A DNA stretch of 64,000 nt from Mytilus galloprovincialis (lineage: Eukaryota > Mollusca > Bivalvia > Mytilida > Mytilidae): assembly GCF_965363235.1 (NCBI RefSeq), contig NC_134839.1:80997410-81061409 (forward strand), in the 5' to 3' direction. The notes beneath the pieces were generated by a model. The model did no database searches, was not told the origin of the DNA, and saw nothing but the letters and a program-made list of their open reading frames with translations. A program made the position numbers and the translations under genes. Positions 2,291-19,645 of this stretch are shown here, piece by piece. Position 1 is the first letter of the stretch, and each line of letters starts with the position of its first letter.

Positions 2291-2339
2291 AAATCTATCA
2301 ATATTACACATAAGTTTACCTAATAACCATGTTTTTTCT

Positions 2340-2353
2340 TATTTTGTTTTCAG
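2340..2353 (+). promoter_or_regulatory. splice acceptor before the GPCR coding exon
   Basis: A T-rich tract (tattttgttttcag) ends in AG at 2352-2353, twelve bases before an ATG at 2365. An intron in the 5' UTR ending just before the start codon is common in animal GPCR genes. This supports ATG 2365 rather than the in-frame ATG at 2329, which lies within the intron's pyrimidine tract. Confidence 0.6.
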
Positions 2354-2364
2354 CCTGGTACAGA

Positions 2365-3608
2365 ATGAGCAATAATAAAAGTTACACGAACAATGATGCT
2401 ATGAACGCATTGAACACAACATTTTTTAACAAAGATATCATTCTTTGGATATACAACGAAACTCATCTTCAAAGGCGTCTTCCAGCTATGATTTTGTCTG
2501 GATTTCTAATGCTGGTCGGTATCATAGGTAACACACTTGTTGTATATGCCTACGGAATGAAGTTCAAGAAATCATCAGCTAACTTTTTCATATGTTCCCT
2601 AGGAGTAATAGATCTAACATGTTGTGTTTTAAGCATTCCTTTCGAGATATTTACGTTACGCTTCCATTATGTAAATTTCAATACAGTAGCCTGCAAATTT
2701 TTTCGAGGAGTTGGAATGGCTGTTTATATTGCAGAAGGATTCATGCTTGTATTCATCGCTTTCGACAGATATTACAAAGTTTGCAGACCATTAAAAGAAA
2801 CTATATGTCAAAATCAAGTACCCATCTTAGTATAATAGTCTGTCTAGGACTGATATTTGGATGGCCGGCATTATTTGTGTTTGGTGAACATTCCGCAGAG
2901 ACAACTTTTCCTGACATTTATGGGAAATCTTGTATGGTTGACGATAACCTTAAAACCACAATATATCCTACCTTGTTTTTCTGCAACCTTCTTCTTATTT
3001 TTATTGTATGTTTCAGTTTAATAGTAATACTTTATGGGCGAATATTTCATTCAATTCTAAAGTGGAAAAAAGAACGGGATATTTTGAAGATGAAATATGC
3101 AAGACCAGAAATTGGACTTAATCGTAATTCGTCTAGTTCAAGTTTAAGCTCATACACTTTGTCGGCATTATACAGTCGGAAAGTAGAGTATCATATAAAT
3201 TTACAGTTGAATAATGATAACAATAGACAATGTGAAAATACCACTAGATCTAACTTACGTTTCAGTTTTTTAGAAAAGTTTAATACTTCTATAAATCGTA
3301 CTCAGACCGTCAATATGAAGATAGTTTCAAGTAATCGGAAGAACACTCGAATGGTGAAAACAACTCTTATATGTGTAACAGTAACAGTTACGTTTATTTT
3401 GAGCTACGTACCTTACCTAACGTTACAAATCTTACTTAAATCCAACCAACTTAAAGAGGAAAGCGAGAGTCTATTGTTACATCAAATGATAGAGGTGGCA
3501 GCTAAGAGTTACTGCATAAATAACGCATCAAACGCTATCATTTATAGCATTTTTAATCCAAAGTTCAGACAGTGTTGTAAAGAAATGTTTTATCCTGTAA
3601 AAAAATGA
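2365..3608 (+). CDS. class A (rhodopsin-like) G-protein-coupled receptor, with a 2-bp frameshift
   Basis: This is a seven-helix receptor of the plasma membrane. The N-terminus has three N-glycosylation sequons (N4, N17, N31). TM1 carries GN in GIIGNTLVVY; TM2 has LGVIDL; TM3 starts after Cys110 and ends in FDRYYKVCRP, the DRY motif at 134-136. TM4 has W in FGWPALF, ECL2 has the partner Cys in KSCMVDD, and the third intracellular loop is long. TM6 is FILSYVPY without the usual Trp, and TM7 ends NAIIYSIFNPKFR, a variant NPxxY. The reading frame changes in loop 2: codons run in one frame to ACT 2800-2802 and resume two bases later at 2805, where 'ATAT' looks like a dinucleotide gain. Read through, the protein would be about 413 residues, normal for the family. 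Either it is a recent pseudogene, an allele, or a sequence error. The ligand is unknown; a peptide receptor is a guess. Confidence 0.85.
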
Positions 3609-7430: not shown

Positions 7431-7435
7431 ATATT

Positions 7436-8218
7436 TTTGCCGCAAGTTTATTGTTTTCTGTTAATAAATCAATATCAAGATCCATTTTGTTACATATTGT
7501 GATCAATTTACTTGGCAATCGTCAATGGCAGTAAGCAGGGCTTAAGAACACCAGTTGTTCGACCAGTTAGTCAAGTGCGTTTTCTTAAAGTATACTTTTT
7601 CACTTTTTTGGTCTTTTGGAAAATGTTGTTTGTGCTGTATTTATATTCCTATATAACGAAATTTGTTTTACACATTGTTACATGCACATGTATAAAAGAT
7701 CCGAATTTTATCCAACGCAATCATAGGTTTGAACGGTGTTTTCAGTTTAGACTTGTTCATATTTATTTTGTTAGGGCTTGTATTATATTTTCCCTCCAGT
7801 TTATATAATCCAGTCATCCTAATGTGACTCTTTAAAATTCAAGAGTCTATCCTTAATTGATAAATTATATGGCCTTTCAAATTCTGTTTCGACCCCTAAC
7901 ATCACTGAAGAGACATAAATTGATTAATTGTAAACAAACTTTTAGCATCTTATGTTTGTGGTTTACCATCTTTGCCGCAAGTTTATTGTTTTCTGTTTGG
8001 TATTAAATTAATATAAAGATCCATTTTGTTACATCTTTGTCATCGTTTTATTTTGAAATTGTTAATGACAGTCAGTAGGGTTTAAGAACATCAGTTGTCT
8101 GACCTGTTAATCAAAAGCGTTTTGTTAAAATATACCTTTTCACTCTTTTAAACTTTTTGAAAATGTTGTTTGTGCTATATTTTGCCCCTATCTACAACGA
8201 AATTTGTTTTACATGCAA
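7436..8218. repeat. two diverged direct copies of a ~240-bp repeat
   Basis: The blocks at about 7436-7670 and 7972-8218 both start 'GCCGCAAGTTTATTGTTTTC'. They share 'AAGATCCATTTTGTTACAT', a 'GTTGT..GACC.GTTA.TCAA' stretch, 'GAAAATGTTGTTTGTGCT' and 'ACGAAATTTGTTTTACA' in the same order. They differ by many substitutions and small indels. The second copy ends just before the splice acceptor of the glycosyltransferase exon. A short ORF inside the first copy (7512-7808) is a repeat by-product. Confidence 0.8.
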
Positions 8219-8244
8219 GAAATAAATACCATTTATTTTGTTCA

Positions 8245-9203
8245 GATTTAAAACATGGCTATGCACATTTGCCATACTTCTTGCAATGTTGATGTTGAGA
8301 AGATGTTGGACTGGAGAAAAATTTTACGTTTTCCAGTTTTCGTTTCCATTAAACAATGTAATCGACGTAGTTCACGAAATTGGGACAACTGGCCAGACTA
8401 CAGAAAAGCCTTTGAACAATGTTACTCAACATTATGTCATAAAGAAAGATCCGTCTATCAAGTTTTGTAGCAAGGGAGTATGTGATAGTTTTGATATGGT
8501 TTTTATTGTAAAGTCATTTGTGGGTAATTTTGACCAGAGGATCGCTATTCGAAACACTTGGGGAGCACAGATACATCTGGGTATAAAAACGATGTTCGTT
8601 TTAGGATACGTAGATCGGTTACAACCGCTCGTTGATTTTGAAAATGAAGAATATGGCGATATTCTCCAGTTCAGTTTCGCTGACACATATGATAATCTAG
8701 TGTATAAAACGACCATTTCTATTGATTGGTTAGTGAAACGTAATATAAATACAAAGTATGTACATTTTTTAGATGATGATCGTTTTGTTAATACCAGACG
8801 TTTAAATCAATTTGCTGTTGATAGTATTGGTGTTACAGAAAATAAAATCGTTGGCCACAGATTAAGATTTAAACAACCGCATCGAACAAAATCTTCGAAA
8901 TATTTTACGAACTTAGAAGAATATCCTTTTGATTTTTGGCCGTCATATATACATGGAGGAACCACACTAACGAATATGAAAGTAGTGAAAAAGCTTGCTT
9001 ATGCCATACCTTTTACAAAAATTATCAGAATGGAAGACTGTTTCATAGGAATACTTGCAAAGCTACTTAAGATTAACGTTTTACATAACAGTGAATTTAT
9101 GCAGTTTTATACTTCCGGTTTTGATATGAAAGATAAATTATCCAGTCAAGGTTATAAATCTTATCATTTGATAATTGACGGTTGGAAACAACTACAAAAC
9201 TAA
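8245..9203 (+). CDS. beta-1,3-galactosyltransferase-like glycosyltransferase (GT31), last exon
   Basis: A Golgi type II membrane enzyme that transfers a hexose or HexNAc from a UDP-sugar to a glycan. The exon opens after a T-rich acceptor (ttattttgttcag, AG 8244), so the start codon probably lies in an upstream exon I could not place; the first in-frame ATG is 8286. Residues counted from 8238: a hydrophobic signal anchor at 7-20, a short stem, then GT31 landmarks in order: RIAIRNTWG (101-109), MFVLG (119-123), EEYGDILQFSFADTYDNLVYKT (starting 137), the DxD-type metal site in HFLDDDRFVN (DDD 179-181), WPSYIHGG (234-241) and MEDCFIG (265-271). The domain is complete and intact to TAA. Ordinary beta3GalT proteins have a longer stem, so it is a short version. 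Its 3' end faces dioxygenase copy 1 with 171 bp between the two stop codons. Confidence 0.85.
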
Positions 9204-9374: not shown

Positions 9375-12300
9375 CTATTTTTCCTTGTATCCATCCACAA
9401 GACTCTCATTTTTACATGGGTTGATAAAGTCTTTACCGGACACATCTGTGAAATTAGTACATTCTTTAATGGCTGAATTCGGCACCTGTAATAAACACAT
9501 ACTAAATAGCAGTCAATTCTATTGTCTTTCGTTTGAAATTGACGCACGAAATTTTGACAGATGTTAAAGTAGGTAATAAATTTGTTCTGAATTCTGAGTG
9601 AATTCAACGTGAATGAACTTGGCTGCCAAAGCTTTTTTGATAACAATAAACCTTAAGCAGTGAATATGAAAAACAACAACACTCTTTTAAAAACAAGGAT
9701 ACGTGATATGATTGCCGATGCTTAAACAATCGACTAGAGTTTTATAAATAGTGGTATATAAGCCAACGTATGGGTTTCAACAATAAGAAACAATCACACC
9801 GGCTATTAAAATGCGAAACGATTCAAACGAGAAAAACTAACGGCATTTTTAAAAATAATCAAAATTGTACCTTTGAACATGTCTATACTTTTGTATTTTG
9901 TACTTGCTATCACCTCGTCGCATCATTTATTTGAAATTATAAATTGATTGTCAAAAAATATATATACTAGTACCTTCTGTAGAGGAGTGTATCTTGGATG
10001 ATGATGTTCAATGACTGGATTATTTGATACTTTGTTATACGCCATTAGATATGCCCATCGTCTCTTGTTACTTCGATTGGCACTACTGTGATGCAGGACA
10101 TTCGAGTGAAAAAATATGGCGTCTCCTTTAATATAAACACAGGACGGAGCATATTGATATGATTGGAAATATCACTATCATCATACTTGATTAAATGAGT
10201 ATTTTATAATTCTAAGATGAAACTGATTGTGGCTAATTGTACAATTGTAATTGCACGGATTCGATAGAAAAGAAAACTTATAAAATTTGAAAAAGAAGAA
10301 AATCAAACTGAAGGTACACTGTGTTCAGATAAGTAAAATGTGAAAAAATTATAAGTAAAACACAGAAAAAGATTAACATCTTTGTTAATATAAAAAAAAA
10401 AAACGTGCTGCGGGTTTCGATAGTGTAAAACAATCGTTGTCTTTCGTCTGCGAAGTTAACAATGAAATACCAGTTGTCTCACTTTTGTTTGACGTATATC
10501 CCGAATTTATATTCTGAACTATCATTAGTTCATTTGTTTACATTGAATAATGCTTTATCCATTATGAATATCTGAAAACTAATTCAGATTTGCCAAATAA
10601 TTTCAATTCTTGTTATACTTTGTTATACGAAAGTATAATGATACATTGTTAATAACTCGCTGGATGCGATCGTCGAATAAAATTCTTTTTTATCCTTTCT
10701 TGATTATATATATTGAGTGTCAGATAGGAAATTGTAAACGAAGGGTTTACTATTGAAACATTACTACTAACCCGGTTTGAGCTCAGCATAAATTAATGGA
10801 CATTTTTCCTTAATAGCGTCAACACGTGTTTTATCTGCCCCAAATTGACCATCAATTGGAGTGTGCTCTATTCTTCCGCATTTGTGAGAACCAGGAAGAA
10901 TCTTAAAAACATTTTCAATCTTATTGATGTTAGTTTTTATAATAAATTATAGTAATGACTTTAAATGCATCTTTATGACATGTATGAGCAATGTTATTTT
11001 CATGAAATACAGGATTTATTTCCAAATATCGTTGACAATCATAATGATAAACAATGTCATATAATGTACAGTTTTTATAATCAAAATCGTATAAAAGATT
11101 GATACAAGCAATCTTTACTTATTGTACCAAGTAAACATTACAAAACGTACTGTATTGTTTTATTATTCAACTCACATAACTGCAAAAAAGAGAGTTCAGA
11201 CAATCATTAAGTTTGAAATTATTTACTATCATTATAAAACAAATTTCATTTAACTTATTGGCTTTTTTTTATGTCCTTTTTGTTTATCTTACACTTCAAC
11301 TGTTTCGGTTCTTATATATCCTTTGCATTTGAATATTTGCTTAAAGCGTTCCTGAAGGAGGAATAGCCAGAAAAGCTTGTAACCACATGACGACCATGTT
11401 GTTGAAATCATGCTTTCCTTGTTAAATGTTGCTCAGAAAAAATTGTGTGGATTTCTAAATGTCAAATAATTCCTTTGCATCCTGTTTCATTTCTATTATT
11501 TTTTATAACTAAGGGTAGTTTCATTGTAACCCTCGTTATGCATGAATTAAGAAATGTAACAGATATTGATAAATGCGTACATATTTTCTAATATGAAGCC
11601 AAGCCAACATGAAATGACCTTTTTATATGAAGATATCAATCTTCCGCAAAAATCAATACAGTTAAATACAAAATATACCTCTAAACAGCCGTTTTCTTTC
11701 GTACATGGGTCTAAAGCAACAAAAACCGTCATCATATCTGGATAAAGACATCCGTTATGATACCAATATCTATTTTAAAATGAGTGTGTTATTTATGATA
11801 AGGCAACATCAGTTTAGCAATGTTCAAATCTCATAAATCTCTTTAGAATATTCTTGTATTTTTAAGTTCAGTCAAAACTTATATATTTCATAGATTCGGG
11901 TTAAAAAAAAATTTACAAATGTAATCAATTAATGAACATAGAAAGATCATTGTACAACTTTTGGTTGCTGGAAACAATGTGAAATTGATTTCAGTTGCAT
12001 TTCTTGTCACATAATGTACTGTCGATGAAACAATACTAAAACCGTTTTTATGAACGGTTCCAGATCATCGTGAATTTTGGTGCCAAAAGTTATATAAACA
12101 TGGCAACTGTTTTAATTTGTAAAATAAGAAAGCACCAATTTTGAATGAACAACTTTAACACAGAGGATCCAAACTAAAAACCGTCCATTGAATTAAAACA
12201 TTGAAAAATTGCGAGCAAACGTCTGATGGGTAAATAGTTTGACTTCATCAGTGTAAACCTATAAACTTTTGCATAAAATAACTTCAATAGGTGATAGTGC

Positions 12301-15300
12301 ATAACATATAACAGATAATTTGAAAGGTTCAACTGTTTTGCCATTGTAAATCCCGAACATTAGTCGAATTTCTGAATTATGAATGATATTTTTCTTTGTA
12401 ACAAAAGGCTTACCCATAGTCTTGATGCCAGTAGTGTGGAGCAGCAATTTTAGCATCTTTCAGCATAAACTTAGAATGGTAATGGTAAACATCACCACCT
12501 AAAAGCTGAATTAGAAATAAATAAATAAACTTAGAATGGTAATGATAAACATCACCACCTAAAAACTGAATTAGAAATAAATAAAAGAAGCATAAACTTA
12601 GAATGGTAATGGTAAACATCACCACCTAAAAGCTGAATAAGAAATAAATAAAAGAAGCATAAACTTAGAATGGTAATGGTAAACATCACCACCTAAAAGC
12701 TGAATTAGAAATAAATAAAAGAAGCATAAACTTAGAATGGTAATGATAAACAGCACCACCTAAAAGCTGAATTAGAAATAAATAAAGAAGCATAAACTTA
12801 GAATGGTAATGATAAACAGCACCACATAAAAGCTGAATTAGAAATAAATAAAGAAGCATACACTTAGAATGGTAATGGTAAACATCACCACCTAAAAGCT
12901 GAATTAGAAATAAATAAAAGAAGCATAAACTTAGAATGGTAATGATAAACATCTCCACCTAAAAGCTGAATTAGAAATAAATAAAAGAAGCATAAACTTA
13001 GAATGGTAATAATAACATCACCACCTAAAAGCTGAATTAGAAATAAATAAAAGAAGAATGTGTCTGAGGACACGATTGCCTCCATTTGTAATTTTCTAAG
13101 TTTAGAAGGATCTATACTATTAAACGAGAAGACCTCATTTTGTGTGTCGCTTCTCTTCCTTCCACAATAAATCAATCATCATGCCTCTGTGTCCTATAGG
13201 TAACATGCATAGTCGCATTTGTCATCCATTCTTATGATTATTCAGATTGAGTTATTTTGGGAGAAAAACGACAAAAAAAAAGTCCGGATATGATTCCGTC
13301 ATCAGACTGACTTTTAGTCATATATAAGACTTCCGGTTTGAAACATGCACAAACACAACCAATCGTATGATAGATAACAAAATTAAAACATGTATAAGCC
13401 AATCAAATCGTTCTCCATATCATGGTGTTTAGATCGCAAGAACCACAACTATTATACCTCCTTATAGAGGACAATTATTTTTCGCGTTTATCTACATGTA
13501 AACTACGATTATACTACTTTAATATATAGAGACTCTCTGTATTCTGTCTACTGTTTTCTTTCAATTGTTTACTATTTAAGGGGTCATACCAGTTGCACAT
13601 ATATTAAAATAAGTAAAACATGACACATTTAAAAAAAAAAAAATCGTATGATAGATAACAAAAATGAAAAATAAATAAGCCATTCAGAGCGTTCTCCATA
13701 TCATGGTGTTTAGATAGCAAAAATAACAACTATTATACCTCCTTAGAGAGGACAATTATTTTTCGCGTTTCATTTCATGGTGTAAAGATCGCAAGAACCA
13801 CAACTATATATTATACCTCCTTAGAGAGGACAACTATTGTTCGCGTTTATCTACATGTAAACTACGATTATACTACTTTAATATACAGAGACTCTCTGTA
13901 TTCTGTCAGGGACTTTCTATGTTAGTATAGAATGTCCCTGATTCTGTCTACTGTTTTCTTTGAAATGTTTACTATTTAAGGGGTCATATCACTTGCATAT
14001 ATATTAAAATAAGTAAAACATGCTCAACTTCATCTAAAACTACCTCGACCAAAAACTTTAACCTGAAGCGGGACAGACGGACGACCGAACGAACGAACGC
14101 ACGGATGCACAGACTAGATGAGGCATAACAATTTATTGTTGAAAGTGAAAATAGTGATTTGGCAAAAATGAAAGTAAGGTAGAGATTACAGGGAGGCAGG
14201 ACCTTTTTCGGGGCGTCGGGATCGGGTATTTTGAAGCTCGGGATTTGGGGATTGGTCCTTACGGGATCCGGGAATATATTTTTCGATTTGGGAAGCAGTA
14301 TAGCAAAAGTGAAGAATAATTGTGGTCTGAGGCCAGAAACACGAAAATAATTGAATTTAACAGAAAGGAAACAAATATAGGACTTTGAAAAAAGGGAGAG
14401 GGCTTTTGATACCTTTTATGAAATTCTCCATACATAATATATTTTACAAAAAATCATCCTACAACAGTTCACGAGCTGTATGTGCCCGCGATTTCGCGGG
14501 TGTGTTCTAGTACTTTTGAACGGTACATGCATCATATTTCAAATTGCGTACTCTGTCTTCTTGTTCTTATCATTTCGTATGAGTTTCATACAATTTGGAT
14601 ATTAAAAACTTCAGTTAAAATTCTGAAACAAAAACATTTGGAATATTCGAAGTTACAATGGGGCTTAACTCCATTGGAGCAGGAACGTCTATCTCTGTCG
14701 CTATCAATGAATAAATATTATTAAACTAAACATAACTCTAGGTTAAGCCTATCAACTTCTAATTCGCAAGGAAATAAGCTACACAACCTTCAGCTATATT
14801 TTTAATATGATGGCTATGCATTGAAACAACTATGAAATGTAAAGATGGCACATGAATGGGAGATTTTATTTTCTGAAATTGTTAATTATTTGATACCAAC
14901 TTGCTCAAAATTGTGACGATAATGTCTTATAGAATCTAAAATGTACGATCATTGATACCACATAGTAACCAAAATATTTTAAAACGTTCTTATGGTGGTT
15001 CATTTGTGTCTATGTGTTCGTTATAAAAGTACAACTTACCGCTTCACAAGTATTAACAACCTTTTCTGACCTAGCTACCATACCAGTAACATCAGTGCCT
15101 GGCTGGTTCCATATTGTACGGACAGTTTTCATTTCTCCTTTTTCCAACTAGTATATCAAATATAATAATTGTATTTGGGGTAAATCTGGTTATTTTTTCA
15201 AATCTGATTAATACTTTACATATCTTAATGAATACTATTTTTACCTTTAGATATATCCATAACTGTTGCTGTTAGGTTGCTGTGTCATTAACTTGTATCC

Positions 15301-18300
15301 CGCATGTCATATATTCATATTTGTAAAGACTTATTCATTAAAACAAGGGTAATAGAGAATTTTTATCATTTTACAATACATAATTATGAAAATATTTCAG
15401 AATCCCCAGCATGTTATCAATGTGAAACAAGGAATCCATGTGGTCTTTGTTATTACTTTTTACTTATAAAGAATTCGGATTTGATGACAGATCTTTTGTT
15501 GTTTCTGTTAAACCTATTGAGCTTTAAATCTGATATACACCCATTGAAGTATATTGCCTTTTTGAGACTTTTCCGGTTTTATTGTCTTATTGAGGTAAAC
15601 TTCACGTCTGTTTATTCACGATAGTTAGTCAATAACGATCTGTAATTTTGTTATTAATATCTTAACGTAAGGTTATTTTGAATTAATTTCTTTACGTTTG
15701 GTACTTTTAACAATCGACGAAAAAATTCATTGAAACTTAAATTTTCATCCAATATATTATGTCAGCATTTGAAGAAAAGACTTAATGAAAACAAAATGTT
15801 GCTCTTAGCTGTAGTGAAGACCCATTGGTGGCCTTCGGCTGTGTTTTATACTCTTTGGTTGGTTGTCGTCTCTTTGACAAATTTCCCATTTCTATCCTTT
15901 TTTTTTTTTTACATAGAAATAGAATTAAAGGTTCATTATTCTGTTAGTTGAAATTATCCTTTTTGTCGTAAATTTTTTTTTATCTCAATCGACTCTCATC
16001 GTCAATTTCTTGAAGTCAAGATATGAGGCAGATTCAACTGTATCCATTGTTTCCTTTATTCTAGGTCCTATGGGATATATGTGTTCAATTAAGTCATCAT
16101 ACTTTTTAACTATTTAGTGACAGGACACCATCTATATAGTGGAACGTGGAGTCAAGGATAATGCAAGATCACGAAGCAGCAAGAGTAAAGTACTTCTTCA
16201 ACTTTGACCATAACCTGAATATATCACATCATAAGCCGTCCTGGCAAAGCATATAGTATGTCTTGATTTATTAATTTTCTGATTTATTTAAGTATAAAAA
16301 CGAAAAAAATAACTACAAGTACAAAATATGAAGGATTTACGTTATACTTACAGTAAACAATTCTTTAGTAAAACCGTCATTTTCAGTAATACACTTCAGT
16401 ATCATATTAACTTCCTCCTGGTCAAATAAGGATCTGTACAAACAAAGCAATAAAGGCAACAGTAGTATACCGTTGTTCAAAACGAGAGAGTAACATTCAA
16501 AACGTGTTACCAATGATATATGCTAGGGTAAAATGTTACTCTCGTATACACTAATAGAAAAAGACACTTGAACATAAAATGCCATTTAAATAGATTGTGT
16601 CATACTATTCTTTCTTTTCTATGTCTGTCGATATTTCAAGCTTTCATCTGTGAAGATTTAGCATTTTTTTGTTTCTTTACATTTCTAAACTCTCTTTACT
16701 CCGGTAATAGGAAAATAGGATGTGATATAATTGTCAATAAAACAACTATATCCACCAGAGTTCAAATGTCGAGAATGAAAGCCTTATAGATAATTTTAGG
16801 GCCTTCAACAATGAGAAAAAATCATATAGTATAGTCAGCTATAAAAGCCCCTACATGAGACGAGAATTAAGTCCGATACATGTTTTAAAGAGAATGGTAA
16901 CATATGAGAATTATTACTTCAATAGTAAGCTATCTGAACAAGTTGAAAACATTCTTGATAATTTAGTACGCATGGCTTGTAAAACAGGCAACATGTGTAT
17001 AGGTTTTTGTACCGGTTACTCCTGTTTCTTTATTTCTTACTACTTGAAAAAAATACCTGATAATAACAAATCCATGCTGTTGAAAGTCCGCAATCATGTT
17101 GTTTGTTACTTTGAGATCATCTACGAATGTGTACTCTGAAATTTATATAAACTTGAAAAAAACGGCATTACAATAAATATCAAATTGGTTTTTAACTAAA
17201 TGCAAAACGTGTAATAATACTTCCTAAGAGTATTATTACACGTTTTGCCTTTTGTAAAAAAAAAAACCCACAGTAACATCCGGGTTTTTGTGCAGGTTTC
17301 GTATTGCTCAGTCTTTAGTTTTCTATGTTTGGTTTTAGTGTACTGTTTGTCTTTTTAATGAGGGGGGCAAGGGGGTCCCAATAACAGCAAAACAGCAAAT
17401 TGATTTGGCTCATAACAGATAACAAGGAATTAAAATGGACAAAAACAGATAATAGTAAATGAAATATTAAAATAATTCGGTCTTTGACAAATCAGTATTT
17501 CTTATTACGGATATAATCCTTTGTAATGCATTCCATTTTTTATGACTATGTTTTTAGTATTAATTTATGTATCTAGAATGTGTTTAAATTACTATTCAAT
17601 ATATTATAATATTTTTTATACGCTCGTTTACGGAACGTATTATGGTATACTGTTGTCCGTCTGTTGTCAACATGTCGGACATTAACTCCAAAAACTCTTT
17701 AACCATTTGCATTAAACTTTGGGAAATTGTTAATATCTATTGACGTGAGCTCTCTTTTTGGTTTTTTTTTATAAATTTTAGATTTTAAGTTTCTGGGTAA
17801 TGGGTTTTTATTCAATAAAATTGGTGGTTTTTTTCAGTTTTCTGATAATATCTCAAAAATGCTTTCACAAAGCAAGGAATTTTGGTGAATTGTTTATATC
17901 TATTAACATGAGGTAACTTTCAATTTTTATAAATTTTAGATTTTACATTTCCGAGTTAACGGGTTTTATTAATTAAAAAGGGGTGATTTTCCAGTTTTCA
18001 GACATTAACACAAAAATGTTTTCAGCAGTTCTCATGAAACGTTGGTGTATTGTTTATATATATTGACTGAAGCTCCCTTTGTTGCTAATCAGAAAAGTGA
18101 CCTAAAAGAGTTTGAATATTCTGACTTTTTCTAAATGACCATTTAATGAGGTGTGTGAATTTTTCTTAATAAAACTATGAGGCAAAGTGGTATATATGGT
18201 AGAAAAATCAAAAGCACCAATTATAAGCATGCAATTTATCAAGTACTTCGAACGAATTTTGACACTCTAAAAGCAATTTATTCCACTATTTTCAAAGGCC

Positions 18301-19645
18301 TTATTTGAACAATTTTTTATCAGCTGAGGTTTTTGATTGTACCAAGTGTACTAGTAAGTAGAATACATAGTTTAGTAGGGAAACAATGGCTTGAAACGAA
18401 ATAAATCTTTGTTTGTAATGAGTTATGTGCAGCTTCGGACCCAAGTACATGCTGGAACTTTCATTGTACAATGCATTTGGTTCTGCTTTGAAAAGAATTA
18501 CAGAGCTGAGGCTATGTACCATATTATATAAAAGGTTAAGTGGTTGTTAGGACCTAGTCCTTAATTGAGATCCTTGTCAGATATTCCTGGCCATATGTTT
18601 TCCTTTTTGTCATATTAAGAATTGTTTTAATTTAATGTGTTCGTACGGAAAACAAGGAACATTATTCTCATACAAAACATTAAAATAATTCTAAATACAC
18701 ATTAATAAAAAAAAATGGAATTTATTACAAAGGATAATCATAAGATATACTTGAATTGTCCTGGACCTCACTTCTGTGATGGGTATATGTTGATGGAATC
18801 CTTCTCTAAATATGGGACAAACATATTAGTAGTGGTAGACCCCAATGGCCAATGATCTTCAATTTATACCGAATATTGACTGTCAAAAAAAATGGTAACA
18901 TTCCAATTTTCAATAACAGTTAACAGCAAATACATTATCACAATAACAGATAACAAATAAACAGCTAACAAAGAATAAAACAATAACAGCTAACAGCAAA
19001 TATATTTTCAAAATAACAGATAACAAAGAATTAAATTGCCCCATAACAGCATAACAGTTAAACCCCTTGCCTCCCTCTTTAATGTGTTTCATTGTCAGTT
19101 TGTTTTCGACTTCTAAGTTTGGATATGTCTTTGATTATTTCGCCTTTTATTTACACTTTTAAACAACTCTGACAATTTGTACATAAAAAATGCCTGTTCC
19201 AAGTCAGGAATATGAAAATTGTTTTCCATTCATTTGATGTGTGTGATCTTTCGATTTGACATTGGCTTATGGACTTTCCGTTTTGAATTTTCTTTGGAGT
19301 TCGATATTTTTTGTGTGTTTTTTTTTTTTACTTTTTCATTAACAAATAAGTACAATAAATACTAGAAATCATAATTTTTTAACAAACCATGCTTTTCTCT
19401 CATTTTATGTCATCATTTACGCTACATGTATTATTTTTCTGTGTGTTTTTTTTTTTTTACTTTTTCATTAACAAATAAGTACAATAAATACTAGAAATCA
19501 TAATTTTTTAACAAACCATGCTTTTCTCTCATTTTATGTCATCATTTACGCTACATGTATTATTATCAAGTAAAAATATAAAAATGTATTATCTCAAATG
19601 TAGTACATACCTCCTAAAATGTTCATAATACTTTTCTAGATACGT
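9375..19645 (-). CDS. phytanoyl-CoA dioxygenase-like protein, copy 1 (5' end uncertain)
   Basis: Fe(II)/2-oxoglutarate oxygenase of the PhyH family. Exons on the minus strand, numbered as in the intact copies: E3 16352-16433 ([13 protein letters not shown]), E4 15040-15147 ([19 protein letters not shown]), E5 12414-12505 ([14 protein letters not shown] to WHQDYG, the iron His and Asp), E6 11679-11769 ([20 protein letters not shown]), E7 10772-10901 ([13 protein letters not shown]), E8 9974-10125 ([13 protein letters not shown] to RRWAY, distal iron His and 2-oxoglutarate Arg) and E9 9375-9485 ([20 protein letters not shown], stop TAG). All junctions have GT/AG and matching phase. No first exon was found. 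A 35-base candidate E2 lies at 19611-19645, much shorter than the 79 bases in the other copies. Intron 4 holds the exon-derived minisatellite and a Helitron. From E3 on the frame is open; whether the gene is functional depends on its unseen start. Confidence 0.8.
12414..12505 (-). CDS. exon 5 of dioxygenase copy 1, source of the adjoining minisatellite
   Basis: This 92-base exon encodes the iron-binding HxD (WHQDYG) and ends in phase 2 at a GTAAGCC donor. Its first 39 bases and its acceptor match the repeat units that continue upstream to about 13057, so it forms the 3' edge of the array. Confidence 0.85.
12467..13057 (-). repeat. minisatellite of splice acceptor plus partial exon 5, nine units
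   Basis: Nine units begin (plus strand 'AAACTTAGAATGGTAAT') at 12467, 12527, 12594, 12661, 12728, 12794, 12860, 12927 and 12994. Periods are 60, 67, 67, 67, 66, 66, 67 and 67 bp. On the minus strand each unit is a pyrimidine-rich tract ending in CAG followed by the start of exon 5 ([14 protein letters not shown], with local changes). No unit but the last has the rest of the exon or a donor. The unit nearest the exon is 60 bp, so an upstream acceptor at 12565 would add 20 codons in frame. Most other units are 67 bp and change frame. Confidence 0.95.
13111..14510 (+). mobile_element. non-autonomous Helitron
   Basis: The element starts with TCTATACTATTAAACGAG and ends CTAG at 14507-14510. A GC-rich hairpin (CCCGCG, loop ATTT, CGCGGG, 14485-14500) lies ten bases before the end. 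It sits between A (13110) and T (14511), the expected Helitron target. It is about 1.4 kb, encodes no Rep/helicase, and carries internal duplications ('CTCCATATCATGGTGT...TACCTCCTTA.AGAGGACAA', three copies at about 13410-13840). It also holds a G-rich block near 14170-14290 and what looks like the tail of another repeat ('GACAGACGGACGACCGAACG') near 14073. It lies in intron 4 of dioxygenase copy 1. Confidence 0.85.
14520..15035. other. rest of copy 1 intron 4, no feature seen
   Basis: AT-rich intron sequence between the Helitron and exon 4. The plus-strand ORF starting at 14482 crosses the Helitron end and is not a gene. Confidence 0.5.
15790..15920 (+). repeat. dispersed repeat with 'GGTTGTCGTCTCTTTGACA' core
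   Basis: The text 'GGCCTTCGGCTGT...GGTTGTCGTCTCTTTGACAAATTTCCCATTTC' ends in a T run. Relatives lie at 26030-26092 (plus strand), 30120-30200 (opposite strand) and near 39980-40060 (opposite strand). I take it as a dispersed non-coding element; the exact class is unknown. Confidence 0.6.
16482..16551. repeat. imperfect hairpin in copy 1 intron
   Basis: Outer arms 'ACGAGAGAGTAACATT' and 'AATGTTACTCTCGTAT' pair with one 2-base bulge around a loop of about 40 bases. It is a small inverted repeat, perhaps a MITE remnant, just upstream of exon 3. Confidence 0.6.
17202..17248. repeat. perfect 20-bp hairpin with 7-base loop
   Basis: GCAAAACGTGTAATAATACT (17202-17221) is followed after seven bases by its exact reverse complement (17229-17248). 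It lies between candidate exon 2 and exon 3 of dioxygenase copy 1, close to a short A tract. It may be a recent palindromic insertion. Confidence 0.9.
17625..18100 (+). repeat. tandem repeat, period about 157 bp, about three units
   Basis: Units carry 'TTTATAAATTTTAGATTTTA' and a degenerate 'ATTGTTTATATCTATTGAC' block. The two clearest copies of the first motif are about 157 bp apart (17770 and 17928). The array begins with 'ACGGAACGTATTATGGTATACTGTTGTCCG', a head typical of mollusc non-coding elements. Confidence 0.65.
18890..19080. repeat. 'ATAACAGATAACAA' low-complexity repeat
   Basis: Short units such as 'ATAACAG.TAACA..AA' recur at 18910-19070 and in reduced form at 17390-17460. They are AT-rich simple sequence with no coding sense. 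Confidence 0.55.
19180..19310 (+). repeat. dispersed mussel repeat ('TGCCTGTTCCAAGTCAGGAA' family)
   Basis: The text 'AATGCCTGTTCCAAGTCAGGAA...GGACTTTCCGTTTTGAATTTTC' recurs near 22430-22530 and 62555-62680 (plus), and 42530-42640 and 50600-50760 (minus). Members share 'ACCAGGTTTAATCCACCAT' upstream where that part is present. A dispersed non-coding family is the best description. Confidence 0.7.
19312..19564. repeat. near-identical 127-bp tandem duplication
   Basis: A block running from 'TGTGTGTTTT' through a T12 or T13 run to 'GCTACATGTATTATT' is present twice in a row (about 19312-19437 and 19440-19564). I see a difference only in the length of the T run, so it is recent. Confidence 0.95.
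19611..19645 (-). CDS. candidate exon 2 of dioxygenase copy 1
   Basis: It is bounded by a TTTTTGCAG acceptor and a GTATGTAC donor. It ends AG, so joined to E3 it gives Arg-Ser in the phase used by the other copies. Its translation ([12 protein letters not shown]) weakly matches the end of exon 2 elsewhere ([12 protein letters not shown]). It is 35 bases against 79, and a first exon ending in phase 1 as in the other copies would not fit it. It is a candidate only. Confidence 0.4.

Follow-up and report, generated by a model that had tools for sequence, protein, structure and literature searches.

A probable new mirage minisatellite in a mussel dioxygenase gene, proposed to be mostly silent through use of the last of nine splice acceptors

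The window analyzed here, a stretch of 64,000 nucleotides from Mytilus galloprovincialis contig NC_134839.1, contains a PhyH-like dioxygenase gene, which we call copy 1 (9375–17135, minus strand; all coordinates are those of the window), supported by a gene model and by the Pfam domain PF05721. The model consists of eight located exons on the minus strand (17135–17057, 16433–16352, 15147–15040, 12505–12414, 11769–11679, 10901–10772, 10125–9974 and 9485–9375) and is without exon 1; the numbering of exon 5 follows an earlier, sequence-only reading of this DNA. Two of these exons matter most for what follows: exon 4 (15147–15040), with the donor GTAAGT from 15039, and exon 5 proper (12505–12414; 92 nt), with its acceptor at 12505 and the donor GTAAGC at 12413. 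Joined together, the eight exons form one frame of 280 residues with zero internal stops. The product matches the Pfam PhyH domain with an E-value of 3.6e-35 (122.6 bits; gathering cut-off 22) and 28 sequences of solved structures at E ≤ 0.001, the best three of which are labelled phytanoyl-CoA dioxygenase. Exon 5 contains an HQD motif, which we take to have a role in metal binding. Judged by these matches, from which the enzyme assignment comes, copy 1 is a PhyH-type dioxygenase gene with an intact frame. Compared with four paralogues over exons 4–9 only, copy 1 differs by 0.165–0.238 non-synonymous and 0.79–0.86 synonymous substitutions per site, rates that show constraint on the pairs of copy 1 and paralogue, not on copy 1 by itself.

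The window holds four PhyH exon-5 copies in series on one strand (12414–58563, minus strand), and at least 13 more are present on contigs C2 and C11. The assembly also yields 17 above-cut-off matches to PF10690, the myticin family of Mytilus mussels, compared with zero in 14 control genomes, of which those named are bacteria and archaea. Tail to tail with copy 1 lies a galactosyltransferase-like single-frame gene (8238–9203, plus strand; PF01762, E-value 3.8e-35), and just 5′ of its frame there is a direct repeat of approximately 245 bp (7433–7672 and 7968–8213; 82% identical). A rhodopsin-type receptor (2329–3608, plus strand) appears to be split into two overlapping frames, 2329–2835 and 2592–3608, both of which have the Pfam domain 7tm_1; it may be a pseudogene, or the split may reflect an intron or an error in the sequence. 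At 19305–19564, a 129-bp unit occurs in two tandem copies with 98% matches, an apparently recent duplication.

Upstream of the body of exon 5, at 12465–13057 (minus strand), lie nine distinct head-to-tail units of 60–67 bp, each spanning the intron-4/exon-5 boundary. Numbered from the far end and all read on the minus strand, they are unit 1 (13057–12992, 66 bp), unit 2 (12991–12925, 67 bp), unit 3 (12924–12859, 66 bp), unit 4 (12858–12793, 66 bp), unit 5 (12792–12726, 67 bp), unit 6 (12725–12659, 67 bp), unit 7 (12658–12592, 67 bp), unit 8 (12591–12525, 67 bp) and unit 9 (12524–12465, 60 bp). We name each acceptor by the first exon base that follows it, i.e., 13031, 12965, 12898, 12832, 12766, 12699, 12632, 12565 and 12505 for units 1 to 9. 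A direct scan for TTCAG picks up all nine, spaced by 66, 67, 66, 66, 67, 67, 67 and 60, and TRF reports the same array in two rows, one with period 67 (12525–13056; 95% matches, score 966) and one with period 133 (12462–13056). The TRF result rules out a chance repeat. The sequence-only reading had described the acceptor and the first bases of exon 5 as repeated nine times next to the real exon. Nine units are indeed found, but they comprise eight extra copies and the real boundary, and the last of them, adjoining the exon, measures 60 bp, not 67 bp.

Each unit is a composite. Approximately 26 bases (19 in unit 9) are derived from the intron and contain a pyrimidine tract and a CAG acceptor, ending in TTCAG; the other 41 or so bases are derived from the start of exon 5, and most units open this part with CTTTTAGGTGGTGATG. 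Eight of the nine units have a second AG, within the sequence TTTTAG, seven bases into the exon-derived part; the unit at 12832 reads TTTTATG. Unit 9 continues directly into the remainder of exon 5 (12505–12414) and then into the donor GTAAGC, and at the far end unit 1 borders other intron sequence. In an alignment of the units, the sole difference between units 6 and 9 is a 7-bp deletion private to unit 9, unit 1 has a deletion and a change of its own, and units 4 and 5 have in common a 1-nt deletion and a GAT to GCT change, in a set of just nine units. The changes common to units 4 and 5 and the private deletion in unit 9 suggest, on the alignment, a stepwise turnover of units. We also considered whether selection preserves the array acceptors, for which the counts give no support: 7 of 41 exon-derived sites are substituted and 1 of 26 intron-derived sites (Fisher p = 0.14; counts tallied by eye from the unit alignment). 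An automatic letter count (12/227 intron-derived, 11/366 exon-derived) is inflated by misalignment of the single-base deletion that units 4 and 5 share. The same intron carries a second repeat, separate from the boundary array, in which 13361–13489 pairs with 13642–13770 (90% identical) and 13416–13622 with 13771–14022 (77% identical).

Which of the acceptors is the real one can be judged from the paralogues. We compared 17 exon-5 copies, the four in the window and one each from 13 of 14 other loci (L040 contributing none). An AG stands directly before the first aligned codon in 14 of the 16 copies other than copy 1, and in the remaining two (L030 and L036) it is found one codon further upstream. 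In two of the 16 the comparison is less clean: L039 is interrupted by a stop codon and the match in L032 is shortened. L039 (C2:27123850-27124850) is perhaps a pseudogene. The end of exon 4 is in phase 0, and the sequence CTT TTA GGT GGT, encoding LLGG, fits acceptor 12505. The earlier placement of the real exon-5 acceptor at 12505 is thus borne out by the position in 14 of the 16 other copies. The TTTTAG site at 12498, despite a higher score (9.67 vs. 8.91), is rejected as the normal acceptor because it breaks the frame and the paralogues support 12505.

The array seems to be confined to copy 1. No boundary array is found in the 16 other exon-5 copies (window and 13 loci), which makes copy 1 its most likely place of origin, as far as this family comparison can tell. 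In a TRF survey of the window and 14 family loci (period of at least 10; approximately 106 exon matches, an approximate figure obtained by binning by position), 2 of 55 rows overlap a PhyH exon match, and both are the copy 1 array. Searches of the 1.38-Gb assembly find no second array: a two-unit query gives five matches, all here, among the best candidates, which alone were scored, and a pattern search gives six matches, all inside the array at 12465–13057. A query with the exon body and the following intron gives one further match, of 58 bp, in a paralogue on contig C11 where the boundary is single. No second haplotype of the array flank is found in the assembly.

We scored the splice signals with weight matrices for which 88 acceptors and 86 donors from the PhyH family served as the sample, a small and non-independent one, since the genes are related. 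From this sample the array and exon-5 acceptors of copy 1 were removed, and the donors of copy 1 were kept. The nine array acceptors, all with CAG, fall between the 32nd and 64th percentiles of the 88 family acceptors. Seven of them (13031, 12965, 12898, 12832, 12766, 12699 and 12505) do not differ in any scored base and share a score of 8.91 (49th percentile); 12632 has the highest score of the nine (9.95, 64th percentile) and 12565 the lowest (7.47, 32nd percentile). The TTTTAG sites score 9.67–11.39 (58th–83rd percentile), in every case more than the CAG in the same unit. Outside the array, three AGs in the intron reach the 25th percentile (14935, 14622 and 14062). Donors present a different picture. 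The best GT in the array reaches the 3.5th percentile of the 86 family donors, and the GT sites at its AG/GT junctions the 2.3rd, while the donor at 12413 is at the 58th percentile, itself being part of the donor sample. The earlier description of nine near-identical acceptors before one donor agrees with the scores, and the gene is intact. A role for the array as a donor-containing cassette or a new intron is rejected, there being no donor-like GT by score.

The units also contain the sequence TTCTAAG, which is similar to the branch-point consensus and may serve as a branch point. For acceptors 12965 to 12565 the distance is 32–33 nt on the upstream side and for 12505 it is 26 nt; in each case the sequence belongs to the exon-derived bases of the unit before. 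Acceptor 13031 lacks it.

What would each choice of acceptor produce? Exon 4 is the upstream partner of all nine. When it is joined computationally to 12505, the full protein results. Acceptor 12565 shares the frame of 12505 because the last unit, having lost 7 bp, is 60 bp long, and its use would add a stop-free extension of 60 nt (12506–12565, minus strand) encoding 20 residues, a point that the sequence-only reading overlooked. Each of the seven farther acceptors (13031, 12965, 12898, 12832, 12766, 12699 and 12632; region 12566–13031, minus strand) leads to a premature stop 514–847 nt before the last exon junction, in an exon of 219–618 nt compared with the normal 92 nt. Two of the eight TTTTAG sites, 12498 and 12558, were translated, and both give early stops. 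Transcripts with a stop well before the last exon junction are subject to nonsense-mediated decay, which is expected for transcripts that use any of the seven farther acceptors.

We consider it likely that copy 1 carries a minisatellite of the mirage type and that, as our analysis would have it, most functional mRNA uses 12505, the rest being decayed or minor. A segment of approximately 67 bp straddling the intron-exon boundary would have been duplicated in tandem in one member of the dioxygenase family and amplified, presumably by slippage or unequal exchange. Each unit would act as an acceptor module, with a pyrimidine tract, CAG and, in eight of nine, TTCTAAG. Because the units carry acceptors and no family-strength donor, a single splicing decision would be left, the choice of an acceptor for exon 4. 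By analogy with known cases, the last acceptor, 12505, is probably used in most functional mRNA because the normal 92-nt exon lies beside the only strong donor; transcripts from the seven farther acceptors would have early stops and would be cleared by nonsense-mediated decay. A minor in-frame variant might come from 12565. There is also evidence against a preference for 12505. The sequence itself gives no ground for preferring it, since six upstream acceptors have an equal score and 12632 a higher one, and the downstream TTTTAG sites outscore it in most units (9.67–11.39 vs. 8.91), a point against a simple choice.

The closeness of the array acceptors to the real one in score also counts for a different reading, in which the array acts as a brake whose strength depends on its length: splicing would often go to upstream acceptors, the resulting transcripts would be degraded, and each allele would make an amount of enzyme determined by its unit number. 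Seven of the eight upstream choices lead to the early stops described above, and a human BRCA1 duplication provides a precedent for the use of an upstream acceptor (PMC11839443). However, the amphioxus mirages are reported as regularly spliced (PMC3087553, PMC3902484), the coding frame of copy 1 is intact, and the exons from the seven farther acceptors would measure 219–618 nt as opposed to 92 nt. We regard the brake as unlikely. Going further, one may hypothesize that the nine matched acceptors, of which seven lead to early stops, one keeps the frame and one is the normal site, form a naturally evolved splicing dial on enzyme output that depends on unit number and differs between mussels; this we find still less probable.

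Regular use of 12565 would yield a second form of the protein with 20 additional residues at the start of exon 5, approximately 26 residues before HQD. It is the sole upstream acceptor that is both in frame and stop-free, through the 7-bp loss in the last unit. Yet a multiple of three is to be expected in a third of cases, 12565 is the lowest-scoring of the nine, and part of the insert (YLFLIQ) is derived from the intron and hydrophobic; we therefore doubt strongly that such a form is regularly made. Recursive splicing is more improbable again. Here TTTTAG/GTGGTG would serve as an acceptor and then as a donor, with a zero-length exon, and the units would be removed singly, much as the AGGT duplication model has it for intron gain (described in PMC4974935). 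The AG/GT junction is present in eight of nine units and its AG sides score well, but its GT sides are at the 2.3rd percentile noted above and, by score only, the duplicated AG/GT supplies no usable new donor of the kind that this model of intron gain involves. An assembly artefact is equally improbable: one mirage haplotype was aberrantly assembled in a draft genome (PMC3087553), but here the nine unit sequences are all different, the array is shorter than 600 bp, and the contig measures 115.9 Mb.

The array with its single strong donor amounts to a natural competition experiment, with near-identical acceptors placed at steps of 60–67 nt. The choice of the spliceosome at equal local strength could be read in one gene, where frame and stops mark each choice. 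The frame pattern, with one normal product, one in-frame longer product and seven stops, eases a direct RNA test.

Known systems bear on our preferred reading, in which 12505 predominates, from both sides. The lancelet cases point to silence, and the equal acceptor scores together with BRCA1 point the opposite way. In BRCA1, as in copy 1, the end of an intron (intron 9) and the start of the next exon (exon 10) are in tandem, but there is one extra copy, of 2,012 bp, as opposed to nine short units, and the partial exon 10 duplication is classed as pathogenic (PMC11839443). In cDNA, the duplicated sequence appeared together with its intron part and an early stop, which we read as use of the upstream acceptor, although the primers were duplication-specific and normal splicing might be missed (PMC11839443). 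In a potato RdRp gene, a tandem duplication likewise involved an intron-exon segment carrying 3′ splice signals; there the copy became a new intron after activation of a cryptic GTAAG (PMC4974935), whereas the copy 1 array has no GT of family-donor score.

Mirages are amphioxus minisatellites that span intron-exon boundaries (PMC3087553). The amphioxus genes Adh3, TnC and PGBD5 resemble copy 1 in having short tandem repeats over splice sites, with units of 10–72 bp in Adh3; these are other genes in other animals, and some of the repeats cover 5′ splice sites (PMC3087553, PMC3902484). For the TnC and Adh repeats, PMC3902484, which adds PGBD5 as a case, states that no aberrant mRNAs are generated. 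Somatic instability was detected at Adh3 (PMC3087553). In the globin gene BflGb6, as in copy 1, the repeated unit joins the last part of an intron to the first part of the exon behind it, with acceptors repeated before the real exon (PMC3087553). Its units are 150–160 bp long and 81–100% identical, six in one haplotype and three in the other, compared with nine units of 60–67 bp (95% matches by TRF), and splice signals are kept in many but not all of them, compared with CAG in all nine units of copy 1 (PMC3087553). BflGb6 is a lancelet gene in which splicing and haplotypes were examined, whereas copy 1 is a mussel gene known from DNA sequence. The Adh3 data and the globin RT-PCR suggest that regular splicing is undisturbed, the BflGb6 cDNA being listed as partial (PMC3087553). 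Three features that this source describes for mirages are present in copy 1: a unit that spans the boundary, retained splice signals, and neighbouring units with common changes (PMC3087553). It also describes units at cluster edges as escaping homogenisation (PMC3087553); in copy 1 both edge units have private changes, but unit 9 is otherwise equal to unit 6. The structure is therefore not new in kind, the amphioxus mirages being a precedent. Among the matches listed in the open-licence full-text literature there is no mollusc report of such arrays, which is weak evidence of absence, and molluscs appear to be a new animal group for them. Copy 1 would then extend the mirage minisatellites from lancelets to a mussel, probably as a mostly silent array in which 12505 is used.
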